DNA of 64,000 nt. Origin: Shewanella japonica (GTDB lineage: Bacteria; Pseudomonadota; Gammaproteobacteria; Enterobacterales; Shewanellaceae). The notes beneath the pieces are model-generated. The model was not told where the DNA came from and searched no databases. It worked only from the letters and a program-made list of their open reading frames with translations. The DNA lies in assembly GCF_002075795.1 (NCBI RefSeq), contig NZ_CP020472.1, positions 2,835,001-2,899,000 of the forward strand, written 5' to 3'. The position numbers and the translations under genes were made by a program. Below are positions 38,399 through 46,526 of the stretch, one piece after another; the first letter of the stretch is position 1, and each line of letters begins with the position of its first letter.

Positions 38399-40153
38399 AT
38401 GAGCGTTTTTTCTCAGATAAAGCCTATCGTTGTTTCTACTTCTATTGCGTTACTACTTGGTTTTACTTCACTATCCGCAAGTTCTGTACAAGCTGCCAAC
38501 GAACAGTCTATTTACAGTCGAGCTGCAACAGCACAACCAATTTGGGCCGAGCACGGCATGGTCGCCAGCCAAGAGTCATTAGCCACACGAATTGGCGTAG
38601 ATATTTTGAAACAAGGTGGTAATGCTGTAGATGCCGCAGTTGCTGTGGGTTTTGCTCTTGCAGTCACCCTTCCTCGTGCTGGCAATATTGGCGGAGGCGG
38701 CTTTATGTTAGTCCACCTCGCTGAAACGAATAAAACAATTGCTATCGATTATCGAGAAACCGCGCCTTCAAAAGCGCACAAAGATATATTTCTAGATGAA
38801 AAAGGTAAGCCAAACCCTAAATTAAGCCGAGAACATGGTCTTGCTGTCGGTGTCCCAGGAACGGTGATGGGTTTTGAGTTAGCGCTCGAAAAGTATGGCA
38901 CCATGAAGTTAAGTGAGGTGATTGCGCCAGCCATAAAGTTGGCAAAAGAAGGTATTAGTGTTAATCCAGATCTTGCTAACTCCCTTGATGGACTTAAACG
39001 CCGAATTTATCAATGGCCCAGTTCAGCCAAAATCTTCTATAAAAAGAACGGTGACAGCTTTGCAGTAAACGATACCTTAGTACAAACCGATCTCGCACAT
39101 TCACTGTCTTTAATTGCAACTCACGGCAGTAAAGGATTTTATGAAGGTGAAACTGCAGAAAAAATCGTTGCCTCAATTAAGCAAGCCAACGGTATTATGA
39201 CCTTGGAAGATTTAAAAAACTATCAAGTTGTTGAACGTAAGCCAATTCGCGGAGAATATCGTGGTTACGAGATTGTCTCCATGCCACCTCCTTCCTCTGG
39301 CGGAATCCATATCATTCAAATGCTGAACATGCTTGAGAACTACCCTATCAATGAATTAGGCCACAATACCGCTCAAACATTGCACTTAATGGTTGAAAGT
39401 ATGAAACATGCATATGCCGATAGAAGTGAGTATTTAGGTGATCCTGATTTTAACCCTGTCCCTTTGAAGGCGTTGACGGATCAAAAATATGCTGACTCAC
39501 TGGTCAAAAAAATAGCTTACAACAAAGCCACTCCAAGTGCTGAGATAAAGCCAGGTAATATAGCTCCCTATGAGAGTAACCAAACCACTCATTACTCTGT
39601 TGTTGATAAATGGGGAAATGCAGTGTCGAATACCTACACGTTGAACTTTAGTTATGGTTCTGGACTAGTTGCAGACGGCACTGGGATTTTACTCAATAAT
39701 GAAATGGACGATTTTTCTGCAAAGCCAGGTACGCCAAACGCCTTTGGTTTAATTGGCGGCGAAGCTAATTCGGTTCAAGGAAACAAGCGACCATTGAGTT
39801 CAATGAGCCCAACCATTGTAATGAAAGAAGGCAAACCGTTCTTAGTGACAGGTAGCCCTGGCGGCTCAAGAATCATCACGACGACATTACAACTCATTAT
39901 GAACGTGATTGATCATAAGCTTAATGTCGCAGAAGCGACTGCTGCGCCAAGAATCCATCATCAATGGCTTCCTGATTATATTGGTGTAGAAAGCAGTTTA
40001 AATAAAGATACAATTTCACTGCTTGAAGCTAAAGGCCATACGATCAAGTCCAGCAGTGCCATGGGCAGTACCCAATCAATAGTGGTGACTGAAAAAGGCG
40101 TTTATGGAGCATCAGATCCTAGACGTGCCGGTTCTGAAACCCTAGGTTATTAG
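38399..40153 (+). CDS. ggt: Gamma-glutamyltransferase (glutathione hydrolase)
   Basis: 584 aa from the ATG at 38399, which has AAAGGA upstream and begins a signal peptide (about 1-33, ending SSVQA-AN). The frame is open for 21 codons further upstream, but those residues precede the ribosome binding site. Ntn-hydrolase cleaved autocatalytically before the nucleophile Thr396 in NQTTHYSVVD. Other motifs: ETAPSKAHKD, PRAGNIGGGGFM, PLSSMSPTIV and GSPGGSRIITT (oxyanion region). Periplasmic. Cleaves gamma-glutamyl bonds of glutathione. No obvious terminator follows. Confidence 0.95.
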   Translation: MSVFSQIKPIVVSTSIALLLGFTSLSASSVQAANEQSIYSRAATAQPIWAEHGMVASQESLATRIGVDILKQGGNAVDAAVAVGFALAVTLPRAGNIGGGGFMLVHLAETNKTIAIDYRETAPSKAHKDIFLDEKGKPNPKLSREHGLAVGVPGTVMGFELALEKYGTMKLSEVIAPAIKLAKEGISVNPDLANSLDGLKRRIYQWPSSAKIFYKKNGDSFAVNDTLVQTDLAHSLSLIATHGSKGFYEGETAEKIVASIKQANGIMTLEDLKNYQVVERKPIRGEYRGYEIVSMPPPSSGGIHIIQMLNMLENYPINELGHNTAQTLHLMVESMKHAYADRSEYLGDPDFNPVPLKALTDQKYADSLVKKIAYNKATPSAEIKPGNIAPYESNQTTHYSVVDKWGNAVSNTYTLNFSYGSGLVADGTGILLNNEMDDFSAKPGTPNAFGLIGGEANSVQGNKRPLSSMSPTIVMKEGKPFLVTGSPGGSRIITTTLQLIMNVIDHKLNVAEATAAPRIHHQWLPDYIGVESSLNKDTISLLEAKGHTIKSSSAMGSTQSIVVTEKGVYGASDPRRAGSETLGY

Positions 40154-40787
40154 TAATAACGTAAATAATAACAATGTGCTGTATCGAAAAGCAATGAGTA
40201 GATACAGCTTAAATTTAAACAAGATAAAATAAACACTCACTCCCTTTCCAAAATAAACCTACTCCCTTGCTCATTTTTATTGTTTGGATCCCCTTCTCTA
40301 AATAAGAATAACTATCATTACAACCCGCAAAAATAACAAAACAGCAACATCAAGATTCGATTTTTGTTATTTCAAATTTATTTCAATTAAAGTTTTTTAT
40401 CTTTATGCCGATATTGTTATTGCAGGAACAGACCTGTTATACGGTTATTAATTAAAATTAACAAACACCTAATTGCTGATGCGTTTAATTAACAACGCAG
40501 GTTGTAAGCGACATTTAATCCGCCAGTATTTTGACAAAGACAAAATACTGGCAGCCTAAACAAAATAGAAAGAATTTAATTAATGCCTGAAATGTTAAAA
40601 CTTTTATCAAATAAAATTTATTTCATACAGGCGGCAAGCTTAACTGACTGATATTGATAGATATAACTATTTATGCTCATATGGTTACATCAATTAACTG
40701 AAATAGACTATTTTTTTAGCATAAAATTCATATTATGATGCGCTAAAAATAACTCAATAATATTAAAAAACAGCAGGATTCAACTTG
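40154..40787. other. Intergenic region ggt / MCP
   Basis: 634 bp without a convincing gene. A 22-codon ORF at 40583-40651 lacks a good ribosome binding site. The region contains the strong hairpin at 40522-40552 and a weak Fur-box-like stretch near 40305-40325. Otherwise it is AT-rich, with no RNA gene I can identify. Confidence 0.6.
40522..40552. other. Perfect 12-bp stem-loop in the ggt-MCP gap
   Basis: GCCAGTATTTTG and CAAAATACTGGC flank the 7-nt loop ACAAAGA. It is the longest perfect hairpin in the gap, and there is no T-run after it on either strand. It lies 236 bp upstream of the MCP start, so it may be a dimer-bound operator or leader RNA structure. Confidence 0.6.
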
Positions 40788-42404
40788 ATGAAGTTAAACA
40801 GCTTAAAAATAAAGCACCGGATCGCTTTATTAACAGTCGTTGCAATTTCTTCGTTTGTTATTTCACTTGTAATTAACAATCAAAGCGTGCAACAAAATGC
40901 TGAACGTTTAAATGGACTTCAATCACAACTTTACCCAGTATTAAATTTAGCCACGATTAACGATGGCTTGTTATTGCAATTAAATCAAAATATTCAATCT
41001 GCAGTAACAACCGGTGAAGAAGAATCATTAATCACTGCTGAAAATATGGTTAAACAAATTAATAGTAATCTAAATACTATTAAGGGTTTATTACCTCATG
41101 AAGCTAATGATGCCAATAATATGCAACGCGATTTAGCCACTTATCATGACAATGCCAAAACCTTAGTTGCTGAATTTTTAAAAGATGATGTCGACTTTAA
41201 CAAGATCACAAACCAGGCTTCAGAAAATGCCAAGCGATTTGAATCCCTAACAGCGGTTTTTGCTAAAAAACAGCAAGATTACTCCGATGCTTTCACAACG
41301 AGTATTAGCACGACCTTAGCAAGTTCAGATAATGCGGCATCATTGATGTTGATTATCGGTATTATCGCTTCACTATTTTTGGTGGTCGTTGGCGTACTAG
41401 TGAATCGCTCAATCATTGTCACCATTCAGGACGTCACCCACTCATTACAGAATATATCAGAAGGTGAAGGCGATCTTCGTTCTCGGATTGAATATAACGG
41501 TAAAGATGAAATCGCGACGCTCGTACATTGGTTCAACCAGTTTGTATCGAAATTACAAGTCTCAATTGCTGACACTAAACAAACTACAGACAGTTTAAGT
41601 GCAGTATCTCATACGTTATTAGAAAGCTGTAAAAACAGTGAAAACACCGTTATCGAGCAAAATGAGTCCGTTGAACAAATCTCTAATGCCATGCGTGAAA
41701 TGTTCATCAGTGTTGCGCATATTGCTGAGTATGCCGCTAATGCTGCATCTGAAGCTGACAACGCAAATGATGAAGCTAAACAAGGTCAAGAGGTTGTGTC
41801 TCAAGCCATCACTACCATTAATAAATTAGCAGAAGAAGTACAAACGACTGCTGTTGTAGTAAATCAACTTGAGGCGTTCACCAGTAACGTCAACGATATT
41901 CTCGATACCATTCGTGGTATTGCAGATCAAACCAATTTACTTGCCTTGAATGCTGCAATTGAAGCAGCTCGAGCAGGTGAACAAGGAAGAGGCTTTGCCG
42001 TAGTGGCCGATGAAGTAAGAACCCTTGCCTCTCGAACACAAGCGTCAACGCAAGAAATTCAACAAGTATTGCAAGAGCTTCGCTCTACTTCAACTCAAGC
42101 AGTTGATGCAATGCAACGTGGAATTGAAACCGCTGAAGAAGGTGTCAAAACCACTTCATTAGCCGGAGATGCATTAATCAGTATCACCAATAAAGTGAGT
42201 GCGATTACCGTCGTTAACGAACAGATTGCTGCCGCCACTGAAGAACAACATAACACTTCAGAGCTTATCCAGCAGTATGTCGCTGATATTGAAACCAATG
42301 CCGCTAAAGTAAAAATGACCACGGATGAAATGGGCGGGATCAGTTATGACATTGAAGGTGTTAGTAAACAGCTTCAAAACATAACAGGTCAATTTAAAGT
42401 CTAA
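40788..42404 (+). CDS. Methyl-accepting chemotaxis protein
   Basis: 538 aa from the ATG at 40788, with CAGGA nine bases upstream; a TTG one codon earlier is less likely. TM1 about 10-30, a helical periplasmic sensor of about 150 residues, TM2 about 185-207, HAMP ([20 protein letters not shown]), then the cytoplasmic signalling domain with the conserved hairpin tip [20 protein letters not shown] and [15 protein letters not shown]. The ligand is unknown. It is followed by a porin and a mini PstS-like protein on the same strand. Confidence 0.95.
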
Positions 42405-42472
42405 CAATAATAATATTTTAAGATAAACGAGATTTATCTTGAGTAATGATAAAGATGAACAGGAGTTACACC

Positions 42473-43675
42473 ATGAAATTCAACTTGAAAGCGCTACCTT
42501 TAGCTATTTCTGTTGCAATGCTTCCTGCCTATGTCGCAGCTGAAGAAACAAGTGAAGAGAAAATTGCCAAGCTTGAACAACAAGTGCAATCACTTCAAGC
42601 AAGCCAAAATGCAAGCTTAACAGAACGTTTTAGCTTCAATGGCTTCATGACTGGTGCATATATCAGCTCTGACAATAACACTGGTTATGCAGGTGCGACT
42701 ACCTCTGCTAACTTCGATGACGGCAGTAAGTTTGGCCTTCAAGGTACCTTTGCCATTACAGATCAAACTCAAGCCGTAATGCAGCTTATGATGAAAGGCA
42801 GCAACGATTGGGAAGTAGAAGCTGAGTGGGCTTATATCTCACACCGTTTTGAAAATGGCCTTCAGGCTCGTGCTGGTAAACTTCGTGTACCTTTATTTAT
42901 GTACTCTGATTACTTAGACGTGGGTTACGCACAGCCATTCGTACGTCCACCTTCAGAAGTTTATGATGCGGTTCCTTTCACATCTTACACCGGCGGTGAT
43001 GCAAGTTATGATATTGAGTTTGATGACTCAACATTAACAATTCAAGCTTTTGGTGGTCAGTCTGAAGACTCAGGTATTGATATCGGAAATATTTTCGGCG
43101 CCAATGTTAACTGGACTGATTTAACATGGACTTTGCGGGCGGTTTACGGTCAAGCAACCCTTGATGGCACAGTCACACGACAAATGTCAGTAGACGGTGG
43201 AACAGACCCTTCAACAGGTTTACCAATTTCTATTGACGTTACAGTTGATATTCTAGACATTAATGATGCTACTGGTACATTCGTAGGCCTAGGCGGAAGC
43301 TATGACAACGGCTCTTTCTTAGCCATTGCTGAATGGACTCGTATCGAAACAGATGAAGAGTACCCAGATTCTGACGCAGGTTATGTCACTCTAGGTTACC
43401 GTATCAATGCATTTACACCTTATGTGACTGCATCTTATTACGAAACTAAAGATAATGACGTTCGAACTAATCCTGTTCACGCTGCAATTTTTAACGGCGA
43501 GCGCACAGCATACAGTGCAGGTGTTCGTTGGGATGCAATGGATAACTTAGCCCTTAAGTTTGACGTAACCCATGCCACTGACTTCGGTGACACCTCTGGC
43601 GGTTTTGATACCAACATAGCCCAAGAGTTTGATGACACTACAGTGTACACAGTTCAGTTCGACGTTGTATTTTAA
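42473..43675 (+). CDS. Outer-membrane porin-like protein
   Basis: 400 aa from the ATG at 42473 with AGGAG in the right place. Signal peptide about 1-22 (AYVAA). Then a short coiled-coil stretch (EEKIAKLEQQVQSLQAS), found before many Gammaproteobacteria porin barrels of the DcaP/OprO-like type, followed by an amphipathic beta-barrel ending in VQFDVVF with terminal Phe. Positioned 68 bp after the MCP and 11 bp before a small PstS-like gene. Likely a solute or anion porin, though selectivity is not predictable. Confidence 0.85.
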   Translation: MKFNLKALPLAISVAMLPAYVAAEETSEEKIAKLEQQVQSLQASQNASLTERFSFNGFMTGAYISSDNNTGYAGATTSANFDDGSKFGLQGTFAITDQTQAVMQLMMKGSNDWEVEAEWAYISHRFENGLQARAGKLRVPLFMYSDYLDVGYAQPFVRPPSEVYDAVPFTSYTGGDASYDIEFDDSTLTIQAFGGQSEDSGIDIGNIFGANVNWTDLTWTLRAVYGQATLDGTVTRQMSVDGGTDPSTGLPISIDVTVDILDINDATGTFVGLGGSYDNGSFLAIAEWTRIETDEEYPDSDAGYVTLGYRINAFTPYVTASYYETKDNDVRTNPVHAAIFNGERTAYSAGVRWDAMDNLALKFDVTHATDFGDTSGGFDTNIAQEFDDTTVYTVQFDVVF

Positions 43676-43686
43676 GGAGCGATAAA

Positions 43687-44082
43687 ATGAAAAAAATCCT
43701 ATCTATTTTAGCGCTTAGCGTGTGTTCAGTTATTTCAGCTCAAGCAGCAGTTGTCGTCATTGGTGCACCTGGTGCGGCAGATATTAGCGCATCAGATGCT
43801 AAAAAATTATTTTTAGGTAAAGGCTCAAAATCTGCAGTGGTTTATGAACTTGCTGAAGGTAATGCAACACGTTCAGAGTTTCATGGTGCTGTCACTGGCA
43901 AATCTGATTCACAACTGAAAGCATTCTGGTCAAAGCAGGTATTTACTGGTAAAGGAAACCCACCAGCAACAGTAAATGATGCCGCGGCGATGAAGTCAGC
44001 AGTAGCTTCAAACCCTAATGCGATTGGCTACATTGATGAAGCTGATGTCGATGGCAGCGTAAAAGTGATTTTAAAGCCATAA
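43687..44082 (+). CDS. Mini phosphate-binding (PstS-like) periplasmic protein
   Basis: 131 aa with a signal peptide (MKKILSILALSVCSVISAQA). The mature sequence resembles one lobe of a PBP-like domain: ISASDAKKLFLGKGS, RSEFHGAVTGKSDSQLKAFWSKQVFTGKG and the C-terminal AVASNPNAIGYIDEADVD, which is the SSP/PstS-like IGY motif. Full PstS is about 330 aa, so this is a half-size family member. Directly after the porin (11 bp) and followed by a terminator. Perhaps a binding protein that works with the MCP or the porin; not proved. Confidence 0.8.
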   Translation: MKKILSILALSVCSVISAQAAVVVIGAPGAADISASDAKKLFLGKGSKSAVVYELAEGNATRSEFHGAVTGKSDSQLKAFWSKQVFTGKGNPPATVNDAAAMKSAVASNPNAIGYIDEADVDGSVKVILKP

Positions 44083-44168
44083 AAACGACATAACACCATA
44101 GTCTTAAATTAAGTTTTAGTGATTGTGTTTTAAGCATTTCATACTCCCCCCTTCAATTGAAATGCTAG

Positions 44169-44203
44169 AGGGATCTGATAAACATCAGGTCCCTTTATTT
44201 TTT
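44169..44203 (+). terminator. Intrinsic terminator after the mini-PstS gene
   Basis: AGGGATCTGAT and ATCAGGTCCCT form an 11-bp stem (one G-U) with loop AAAC. A T-rich tract follows. Confidence 0.88.
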
Positions 44204-44345
44204 GTTACAAACTAAAACAAGATTGCGACCAAAACTTGATAAACTAGTCACAAATCATAATGTAATAATGATAAACAGAAGCTTAAACCGACCATTCGAT
44301 TAAAAGCTCATTTTTAACCATTCTTTTGCAAACAGGGAAATAACT

Positions 44346-46526
44346 ATGAAGGGACTAACCCTCAAACCGCTTGTTTCAGCTATGGCACTCACAGTCATGT
44401 TAAGTGCTTGTGCCAATGACAATGTACAAACCAACACGACACAAGCACCAAATGTCGTGGCTAGCAACATCATCGAGCAAAATGCTAACAACCCATTCTT
44501 TAAACCATACGGTACTTTTATGGAAATCCCTGATTTCGATAAAATAAAAGATGAACATTACTTACCGGGCTTTAAGGCAGGTATCGCCGCTCAAAAAGCT
44601 GAAATAGCCGCTATTGTTGCGAATCCAGAAAAACCAACATTTGAAAATACCATCGAAGCAATGGAGTTCTCAGGTGAATTAGTAACAAAAGTTGCTAGTG
44701 TTTTCTATAACCTTACTGGTGCGCATACAAACCCAGCGATTCAAGAAATTTCAAAAGAAGTGTCACCAATGCTATCAGCAGCAAGCGATGACATTTTATT
44801 AAATGATGAGTTGTTTAAGCGTGTTAAAGCCGTTTATTTACAAAAAGACAGCTTAAACCTCAATACAGCTAAAGCTAAATTGCTTGAAGACACCTACAAA
44901 CGTTTTACCCGTGGCGGTGCTAACTTATCAGCTGAAGACAAAGCCACATTACGTTCACTAAACGAGCAAATTGGTAAGCTTAATCTTGAGTTTGGCGATA
45001 ACTTATTAGCTGAAACCAATGCTTTTGAGCTAGTTATTGATAACAAGGCTGATTTAGCAGGTTTACCACAAGATATTATTGATAGTGCTGCTGCGACAGC
45101 CACTAAACGTGGCCATGATGGTAAATGGGTTTTCACAACGCAACGCCCTTCTATCACGCCATTTTTAACCTATGCAGAAAACCGTGAGCTGCGTGAAACA
45201 ATATTTAAAGGTTATATCGAACGCGCTAATAACGACAACGCGAATGACAACAAAAAAACCTTAGCGAAAATTGCTTCATTACGTGCAGAAAAAGCTGAAT
45301 TAATGGGTTACAAAACCCACGCTGATTTTGTACTAGAAGAGCGCACAGCTAAAACACCTGAAAATGTATATGGATTATTAGACAAAGTTTGGCCTGCAGC
45401 GCTTGCTCAAGCAAATGCTGAAGTTGTCGAAATGCAAAAGCTAATTGACTCACAAGGTGGCGACTTCAAATTAGAAGCGTGGGATTGGTGGTATTACTCA
45501 GATCAAATCCGTGTAGCTAAATACAGTTTCAACGAACAACAAACGCGTCCATATTTCTCACTTGAAGCAACCTTAGATGGCGTATTTTATACAGCCAACC
45601 GTCTATTCGGCATCACAGTGAAAGAACGTTCCGATTTACCAAAATATCACCCAGATGTTAGAACATGGGAAGTCTATGATAAAGATGGTTCATTCTTAGC
45701 TGTATTTATGGGTGATTACTACGTACGTGACAGTAAACGTGGTGGCGCTTGGATGAACTCATACCGCCAGCAATACAACATGAATGGCGTTGAATCAAAG
45801 CCTATCATTGTAAACGTACTGAACTACCCTCGCCCAACAGGTGATGAGCCAGCACTGTTGACGTTTGACGAAGCAAGCACATTATTCCACGAGTTCGGCC
45901 ATGCACTACACGGGATTTTGTCTGACGTAGAATATCGCTCACAAGCTGGTACATCAGTACCACGTGACTATGTTGAATTCCCATCACAAGTCATGGAAAA
46001 CTGGATGACCCAACCTGAAGTATTAGCGCAATTTGCTAAGCACTATCAAACAGGCGAAGTTATCCCGCAAGAATTAGTCAAAAAAATCCAAGCAGCAAGT
46101 AAATTTAACCAAGGTTTTGCGACAGTTGAATATATGGCAGCAACAAAACTGGATTTAGATTGGCACACATTAACTGATAACACTGTACGTGATGCAGCAA
46201 AATTTGAAGCTGAATCATTAGCCAATATGGGGCTGATTAAAGAAATTGCTCCACGTTACCGTAGTACGTATTTCTCGCACATTTTCGCGGGCGGCTACTC
46301 AGCGGGTTACTACAGTTACCTTTGGTCAGATATCTTAGGCGCAGATGCATTTGAAGCGTTTAAAGAAAATGGTATTTTCGACCCAGCAACGGCACAAGCC
46401 TTCAGAGATAATATTCTGTCTAAAGGTGGTAGCGCCGATCCTATGCAACTTTACCGTCAATTCCGTGGTAAAGATGCGGGTATTGAGCCATTGTTAAGAA
46501 GCCGTGGCTTATTAGAAGATAAGTAA
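44346..46526 (+). CDS. dcp: M3 family metallopeptidase, lipoprotein (peptidyl-dipeptidase Dcp-like)
   Basis: 726 aa. Lipobox MLSACAND with Cys22, so it should be lipid-anchored in the envelope. The catalytic zinc motif HEFGHALHG starts at His515 (His515, Glu516, His519), with YMAATKLDLDWHTL further on and FAGGYSAGYYSYLWSDILGADAF near the end, all typical of M3 oligopeptidases such as Dcp and OpdA. E. coli Dcp is about 680 aa; the extra length is the lipoprotein leader. It removes dipeptides from the C-terminus of peptides. Single gene with its own terminator. Confidence 0.93.
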   Translation: MKGLTLKPLVSAMALTVMLSACANDNVQTNTTQAPNVVASNIIEQNANNPFFKPYGTFMEIPDFDKIKDEHYLPGFKAGIAAQKAEIAAIVANPEKPTFENTIEAMEFSGELVTKVASVFYNLTGAHTNPAIQEISKEVSPMLSAASDDILLNDELFKRVKAVYLQKDSLNLNTAKAKLLEDTYKRFTRGGANLSAEDKATLRSLNEQIGKLNLEFGDNLLAETNAFELVIDNKADLAGLPQDIIDSAAATATKRGHDGKWVFTTQRPSITPFLTYAENRELRETIFKGYIERANNDNANDNKKTLAKIASLRAEKAELMGYKTHADFVLEERTAKTPENVYGLLDKVWPAALAQANAEVVEMQKLIDSQGGDFKLEAWDWWYYSDQIRVAKYSFNEQQTRPYFSLEATLDGVFYTANRLFGITVKERSDLPKYHPDVRTWEVYDKDGSFLAVFMGDYYVRDSKRGGAWMNSYRQQYNMNGVESKPIIVNVLNYPRPTGDEPALLTFDEASTLFHEFGHALHGILSDVEYRSQAGTSVPRDYVEFPSQVMENWMTQPEVLAQFAKHYQTGEVIPQELVKKIQAASKFNQGFATVEYMAATKLDLDWHTLTDNTVRDAAKFEAESLANMGLIKEIAPRYRSTYFSHIFAGGYSAGYYSYLWSDILGADAFEAFKENGIFDPATAQAFRDNILSKGGSADPMQLYRQFRGKDAGIEPLLRSRGLLEDK

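Follow-up and report, generated by a model that had tools for sequence, protein, structure and literature searches.

Porin and one-lobe PstS-like genes beside a chemoreceptor gene in Shewanella japonica: a candidate sensory front end with exchangeable transducers

Introduction

Several membrane transducers receive their signal from a periplasmic binding protein that docks on them, as in Tar-MBP, Trg-RbsB, LuxP-LuxQ, TorT-TorS and NspS-MbaA. Such binding-protein-dependent sensing is known with methyl-accepting chemotaxis protein (MCP), kinase and cyclic di-GMP (c-di-GMP) outputs. To our knowledge, the binding proteins in systems of the Tar-MBP type have two lobes, and the cassettes include no porin of their own. 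In Pseudomonas aeruginosa, PstS loaded with inorganic phosphate (Pi) is reported to bind the sensor domain of CtpL and to mediate chemotaxis at low Pi (PMC4926252). The locus described below is found in a stretch of 64,000 nucleotides of Shewanella japonica DNA, which we call the window (assembly GCF_002075795.1, contig NZ_CP020472.1, positions 2,835,001 to 2,899,000 of the forward strand). At window positions 40788-44082, genes for an MCP, a porin and a PstS-like protein of 131 amino acids (aa), here named mini-PstS, form an operon-like run of three open reading frames (ORFs) on the plus strand. A preliminary description had pictured three same-strand genes with small gaps in 3.3 kb and a coiled-coil prefix on the porin. 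The ORFs, their gaps (68 bases from MCP to porin and 11 bases from porin to mini-PstS) and the prefix are all present.

The central observation is that the conserved core of this locus is the porin together with mini-PstS. The adjoining transducer is mostly an MCP and is replaced elsewhere by a GGDEF, GGDEF-EAL, hybrid kinase or cyclase protein. A literature search covering the titles and abstract beginnings of open-licence PubMed Central papers returned no named system of this composition.

Results

Linkage of the three genes was surveyed in 129 genomes of the genus. A mini-PstS match at E 1e-3 occurs in 97 of them, and the 34 closest mini-PstS places lie in 32 genomes. When the stretch coding for the MCP sensor region (40860..41370, plus strand; 30 close homologues in the genus) was used as query, 44 places in 39 genomes were recovered, 30 strong and 14 weak. 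A mini-PstS gene is found no more than 3 kb from 29 of the 30 strong matches, and the thirtieth match is at a contig edge. In the porin search, 121 of 125 matches are accompanied by a same-strand mini-PstS at a distance of at most 1.5 kb. Seen from the other side, mini-PstS matches at E <1e-12 have a porin in 66 of 70 cases. Conservation of the neighbourhood had been proposed as one check on the trio, and the survey contradicts independent distribution of the porin and mini-PstS and, within the genus, of close MCP sensor-region homologues. In many Shewanella the trio is flanked by a gamma-glutamyltransferase (GGT) gene on one side and by M3 peptidase or 5'-nucleotidase genes on the other; the neighbours differ in other loci, genera and families. 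The four porin matches that have no adjoining mini-PstS all come from one genome (G095, C1 552373, 561060, 2675674 and 4055036).

Outside the genus, mini-PstS is matched in 109 of 295 genomes of the order, and its profile at E 1e-8 in 64 of 398 sampled genomes of the phylum. From a scan of GTDB genomes we took 79 named loci, which were drawn from the top 80 of 586 confirmed matches and are skewed to close relatives. They span Shewanella, Marinobacter, Moritella, Photobacterium, Vibrio, Gilvimarinus, Alteromonas, Pseudoalteromonas, Janthinobacterium, Burkholderia and others; the nearest mini-PstS relatives among these best 80 of 586 are from Shewanella. According to six-frame domain matches, a porin lies at most 800 bases from mini-PstS in 75 of the 79 loci and an MCP at most 2.6 kb away in 56, including two loci (L172 and L173) in which the MCP is on the opposite strand and gives no trio-type sensor match. 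As background, 724,281 bases lying more than 3.5 kb from mini-PstS in the 79 loci hold 2 MCP signalling domains. Since the whole S. japonica genome (4.98 Mb, single contig) has 19 MCP domains over the cut-off and the distant flanks hold two, against a nearby MCP in 56 of 79 loci, the arrangement is far beyond chance. Its commonest order is MCP-porin-mini-PstS, with the variants porin-mini-PstS-MCP and mini-PstS-porin-MCP and with tandem repeats.

Some loci show particular layouts. Tandem porin-mini-PstS repeats stand behind a single MCP in L075 and L099 (from the same taxonomic order as the window) and in L130 (Moritella), with up to four mini-PstS genes in L075. In an Alkalimonas locus (L160, 6387-9393) the porin and mini-PstS genes are directly downstream of the flagellar gene flgT. 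Long open frames in L212 and L213 suggested a porin/mini-PstS fusion, which we rejected because the mini proteins have their own start and signal peptide; both loci have a porin match within 800 bases of mini-PstS.

The cassette is also carried by plasmids. MCP and mini-PstS matches occur together on three P. aeruginosa plasmids of 437-518 kb. MCP, porin and mini-PstS are three consecutive genes on two of these megaplasmids (L229 and L233), and on the third the MCP and mini-PstS are at matching positions. Compared with the window proteins, the copies on pPA272 show identities of 30%, 31% and 45% (over 89 residues), and the trio of pPA272 adjoins TetR and RND efflux genes. On the Alteromonas macleodii plasmid pKD01 (L231, 4381-9279), mini-PstS is followed by a hypothetical protein in the porin position, with no MCP, beside a type IV CRISPR csf operon. 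A link to the chemoreceptor McpT of plasmid pGRT1 was dropped for want of evidence; mcpT-2 is reported to lie on a transposon, and the passages on it name no porin.

Exchange of the transducer is seen in the Pfam results for 26 distinct neighbour or partner proteins. The pair is accompanied by a HAMP-PAS-GGDEF protein in L093, L227 and L228, a PAS-GGDEF protein in L094, and a GGDEF-EAL protein in L096, L156, L224 and L225, the mini-PstS of L096 being very divergent. An EAL protein adjoins the pair on a Caballeronia plasmid (L230). Hybrid histidine kinases (HK) with Hpt are found in L223 and L226, a divergently transcribed hybrid kinase in L095, and class III nucleotidyl cyclases in L154 and L181. 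A kinase in L222 and a cyclase in L178 were assigned by home-made profiles. More generally, the sequence classes of the loci rest on home-made profiles, some built from one to three seeds. Among 20 distant regions, hand-picked from the phylum-sample matches in 16 genomes outside the order, a porin is present in 19, an MCP in 8, GGDEF/EAL in 6 and a kinase in 2; in one of the six GGDEF/EAL regions (L226) the gene directly after mini-PstS encodes the hybrid kinase. The transducer ORF overlaps or abuts that of mini-PstS in five distant regions (L223, L225, L226, L227 and L228). There are also pairs whose neighbour is not a signal-output protein, for example an EngA-type GTPase in L143 and a hydrolase in L164.

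A mini-PstS tree was built from 146 rows and 137 columns, with 56 of its 143 inner branches left open. The partner labels require 30 changes on it, compared with a mean of 55.3 after shuffling, and none of 200 shuffles gave a value as low. Mini-PstS copies of the Shewanella loci linked to a diguanylate cyclase (DGC), L093 and L094, fall in one group with DGC- and HK-linked copies from other families (Shimodaira-Hasegawa-like approximate likelihood ratio test, SH-aLRT, 94). It appears from these sequence comparisons that the type of mini-PstS tends to follow the type of transducer.

The mini-PstS gene occupies 43687..44082 on the plus strand and encodes a secreted periplasmic protein whose 131 aa include the signal peptide. 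The window copy has no match in Pfam. A profile of 32 members matches lobe II of PstS structures, namely 4q8r (residues 76-142 and 156-185) at 3.2e-9 and 4gd5 at 4e-9. AlphaFold2 with an alignment of 81 sequences gave a model with a predicted local distance difference test score (pLDDT) of 89.9 and a predicted template modelling score (pTM) of 0.79, which was used in place of the single-sequence model (pLDDT 39.5, discarded). In a Foldseek search with the model, the first 13 rows are all phosphate-binding proteins, 12 of them at E <= 0.001. VIA-align superposes the model on residues 102-219 of the Vibrio cholerae structure 1twy_F (Z 13.5, root-mean-square deviation 1.9, 100 residues) and on E. 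coli PstS (1pbp; Z 9.4, covering 75-209 only). Because of the profile matches and the structural alignments of the model, we take mini-PstS to be a free-standing lobe II of a PstS-type protein in which lobe I is absent. The two lobes with a cleft between them that characterize PstS are not found in this 131-aa protein.

Among the 81 mini-PstS sequences, F65, W81, F86 and G88 are invariant, Q76 is changed in one sequence and P93 is nearly invariant. In the register taken from the profile-PDB alignment, the column of the contact Arg holds L in 51 sequences, Q in 21 and R in one, so it is not Arg in 80 of 81. In the Ser-Gly-Thr (SGT) loop, the Ser column has N in 34 and S in 23, the Gly column A in 37 and P in 23, and the Thr column T in 22 and L in 16. 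We take this Arg and the Ser-Gly-Thr residues to be the lobe II phosphate contacts of PstS. The family PBP_like_2 (PF12849) matches 27 of the 81 members, the window copy not being one of them.

The chemoreceptor gene (40788..42404, plus strand) encodes a transmembrane (TM) segment, a periplasmic sensor region of about 155 aa with an AVTTGE motif, a second TM segment, a HAMP domain and an MCP signalling domain. This architecture is based on Pfam (HAMP 3.1e-8, 34.2 bits; MCPsignal 2.6e-41, 141.8 bits; both over the cut-off), on an alignment of 32 MCPs and, for the TM segments, on inspection. We took the ATG at 40788 as the start; the longest ORF begins upstream at a TTG at 40785. A PDB profile search with the N-terminal part of the MCP gave 11 matches at E 0.096 or worse, to proteins that we took as unrelated.

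The second gene (42473..43675, plus strand) encodes an outer-membrane porin-like protein with a signal peptide and a short coiled-coil-like prefix; it is assigned from the conserved linkage and from the Pfam matches of its family. The ORF as listed begins at 42446, and the ATG at 42473 is favoured because of an AGGAG ribosome-binding site and the signal peptide. The window porin itself has no Pfam match. Among 38 aligned porins (the window copy and 37 of 78 others, every second one being taken from L107 onward), 14 match Porin_4 and two match Porin_O_P weakly. At least 48 residues precede the first barrel motif in 22 of the 38 and fewer in 16. A PDB profile search with the porins gave nothing at E 1.

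Upstream of the run, at 40388..40414 on the plus strand, there is a sigma-28 (FliA)-like promoter, TAAAGTTT-N11-GCCGATAT, with 1 mismatch of 16 to the sigma-28 consensus. It ends 373 bases before the MCP start codon, and 100 shuffles of the window contained no site this good. The GCCGA of the promoter is kept in 7 of 7 rows (6 distinct genomes); the surrounding intergenic DNA of these close relatives has diverged. In a census that allowed spacers of 10-12 and counted some genomes twice owing to overlapping locus sets, the share preceded by a site with at most 3 mismatches was 27% for MCP-first modules (82 in all), 7.5% for porin-first modules (40) and 6.7% for mini-PstS-first modules (15), versus 0.8% for 1136 other genes. 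The site seemed in this census to be retained in the four MCP-less Shewanella loci; with the spacer fixed at 11 it is found in only one of the four, and it is not used as support. Taken together, the promoter sequences predict co-expression with flagella in this lineage. An intrinsic-terminator-like stem-loop with a T run follows mini-PstS at 44166..44197 on the plus strand (14 pairs, 5 of them G-C, T-rich tail); the window has 4 such sites versus 3.6 in shuffles, and the scan is therefore no proof by itself.

Six genes at the locus were examined by Pfam. A GGT gene lies upstream, and M3 peptidase and 5'-nucleotidase genes lie downstream; none of the six is an ABC transporter, pst or inner-membrane transporter gene. 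One close relative (L043, 9133 and 11669) has two successive 5'-nucleotidase-like genes downstream of the M3 peptidase. An Rfam search of 40150-44400 gave no match at E 1.

Discussion

We think it somewhat probable that the porin and mini-PstS are a conserved sensory front end reaching across the envelope, and that the adjoining gene gives the output, which here is chemotaxis. The porin would admit a small solute to the periplasm. By analogy with CtpL and PstS, mini-PstS may be a dedicated periplasmic adaptor that docks on the sensor domain of the MCP and alters signalling by this receptor in the presence of the solute or of the loaded porin. The run would be transcribed with the flagellar regulon from the sigma-28-type promoter and would stop at the terminator, both elements being visible in the DNA. 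That the locus is one functional unit, as had been suggested earlier, is now well supported by a gene order kept at unrelated chromosomal sites and on plasmids and by the flagellar-type promoter upstream. The linkage of the proposed trio is real. Its composition had to be revised to a core of two genes, since the linked MCP is missing from 4 of the 32 genus genomes that have a close mini-PstS and other transducers are found elsewhere.

A number of results weigh against a sensory front end. The four genomes just mentioned (G003, G032, G042 and G119) keep the porin and mini-PstS without a linked MCP, and at the limits used no transducer was recognised in 21 of 99 loci (17 of the 79 named and 4 of the 20 distant ones), two of which also have no porin. 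When weak matches are counted the linkage is looser in the genus: only 7 of the 14 weak MCP sensor matches have mini-PstS nearby, and only 115 of all 149 mini-PstS matches have an adjoining porin match. The clustering of partner labels on the tree is aided by near-copies, many forks are not settled and the DGC/HK group is long-branched. Several relatives (L108, L109 and L115) have only a weak sigma-28-like site or none. The profile of the MCP sensor region gave no match among the sensor regions of nine other transducer proteins (best E 0.06). As these regions are unlike that of the MCP, one docking mode would need to suit several folds. Finally, a single lobe cannot close on a ligand in the way a two-lobe protein does. 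On a more specific proposal, which we regard as doubtful, the binding site is split between proteins. The lobe would complete a pocket against the periplasmic face of the porin or the sensor domain of the transducer. One trans-envelope sensor would then be made up of the pore, the half binding protein and an exchangeable output protein, be it an MCP, a c-di-GMP enzyme, a kinase or a cyclase.

The loci without a linked or recognised transducer, together with the repeated porin-mini-PstS units behind one MCP in Moritella, are also what speaks for uptake or capture. In that case mini-PstS would hold a solute under the pore or plug it, and the transducers would only be co-regulated or sense the same solute themselves. 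We find this rather unlikely: no inner-membrane transporter was found among the six genes of the cassette and its surroundings, the neighbours identified by Pfam are repeatedly signal-output proteins, and the type of mini-PstS tends to track that of the transducer. Mini-PstS may instead regulate the transducer without a ligand and report the state of the porin or the envelope, like YfiR, which acts on the cyclase YfiN, with YfiB as the outer-membrane component. The DGC-linked loci, in which porin, small periplasmic protein and HAMP-PAS-GGDEF genes touch each other in this order, resemble the YfiBNR logic, and the lobe does not conserve the anion site. The fold, on the other hand, is that of PstS lobe II, and we consider this explanation unlikely.

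Phosphate had been named as a ligand to be looked for. A sensor in which mini-PstS binds phosphate or a similar anion and presents it to the MCP would agree with the PstS-type fold, with weak TIGR02136 matches in 40 of 81 members (the score being far under the NCBIfam cut-off, 18.8 vs 206.6 bits), with the weak resemblance of two of the 38 porins to the phosphate porin family Porin_O_P, and with the annotation of the small protein on the plasmids. Against this, the contact Arg is replaced in all but one sequence, most sequences have other residues in place of the Ser-Gly of the SGT loop, the remainder of the site is missing together with lobe I, and the six genes examined include no pst gene. 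Because there is only one lobe and the Arg and Ser-Gly of the anion site are not kept, phosphate binding by the PstS mechanism is unlikely; another ligand is possible. As an explanation of the whole locus, a phosphate sensor seems to us highly improbable. That the genes are chance neighbours with no shared function is scarcely credible, being contradicted by the linkage counts in the genus and the named loci and by their occurrence as a block on plasmids.

The P. aeruginosa plasmid records name the small protein a phosphate ABC transporter substrate-binding protein or a hypothetical protein. With such names, and with a window porin that matches no Pfam family, the three genes of a putative sensory cassette look unrelated. 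If the porin and mini-PstS do form a sensory front end, they would offer a genetic route to the signals of many orphan chemoreceptors and c-di-GMP enzymes. They would also show that binding-protein-based sensing can work through a single lobe and a pore dedicated to it.

Among the described systems, mini-PstS shares with PstS and PBP_like_2 (PF12849, TIGR02136) a common sequence profile and the fold of lobe II, and differs in having neither lobe I nor the phosphate contacts. YfiBNR is similar to the DGC-linked versions in combining an outer-membrane protein, a small periplasmic protein and an inner-membrane cyclase in one operon; however, YfiR comes from another family, and YfiB is an OmpA-like lipoprotein and not a porin. 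CtpL-PstS is alike in that a chemoreceptor receives its signal from a PstS-type periplasmic protein, but the PstS of that system is full size, belongs to the Pst transporter and has its gene beside pstABC (PMC4926252). The cassette described here, in contrast, has one lobe and no transporter genes, and mini-PstS is encoded together with a porin and a receptor.

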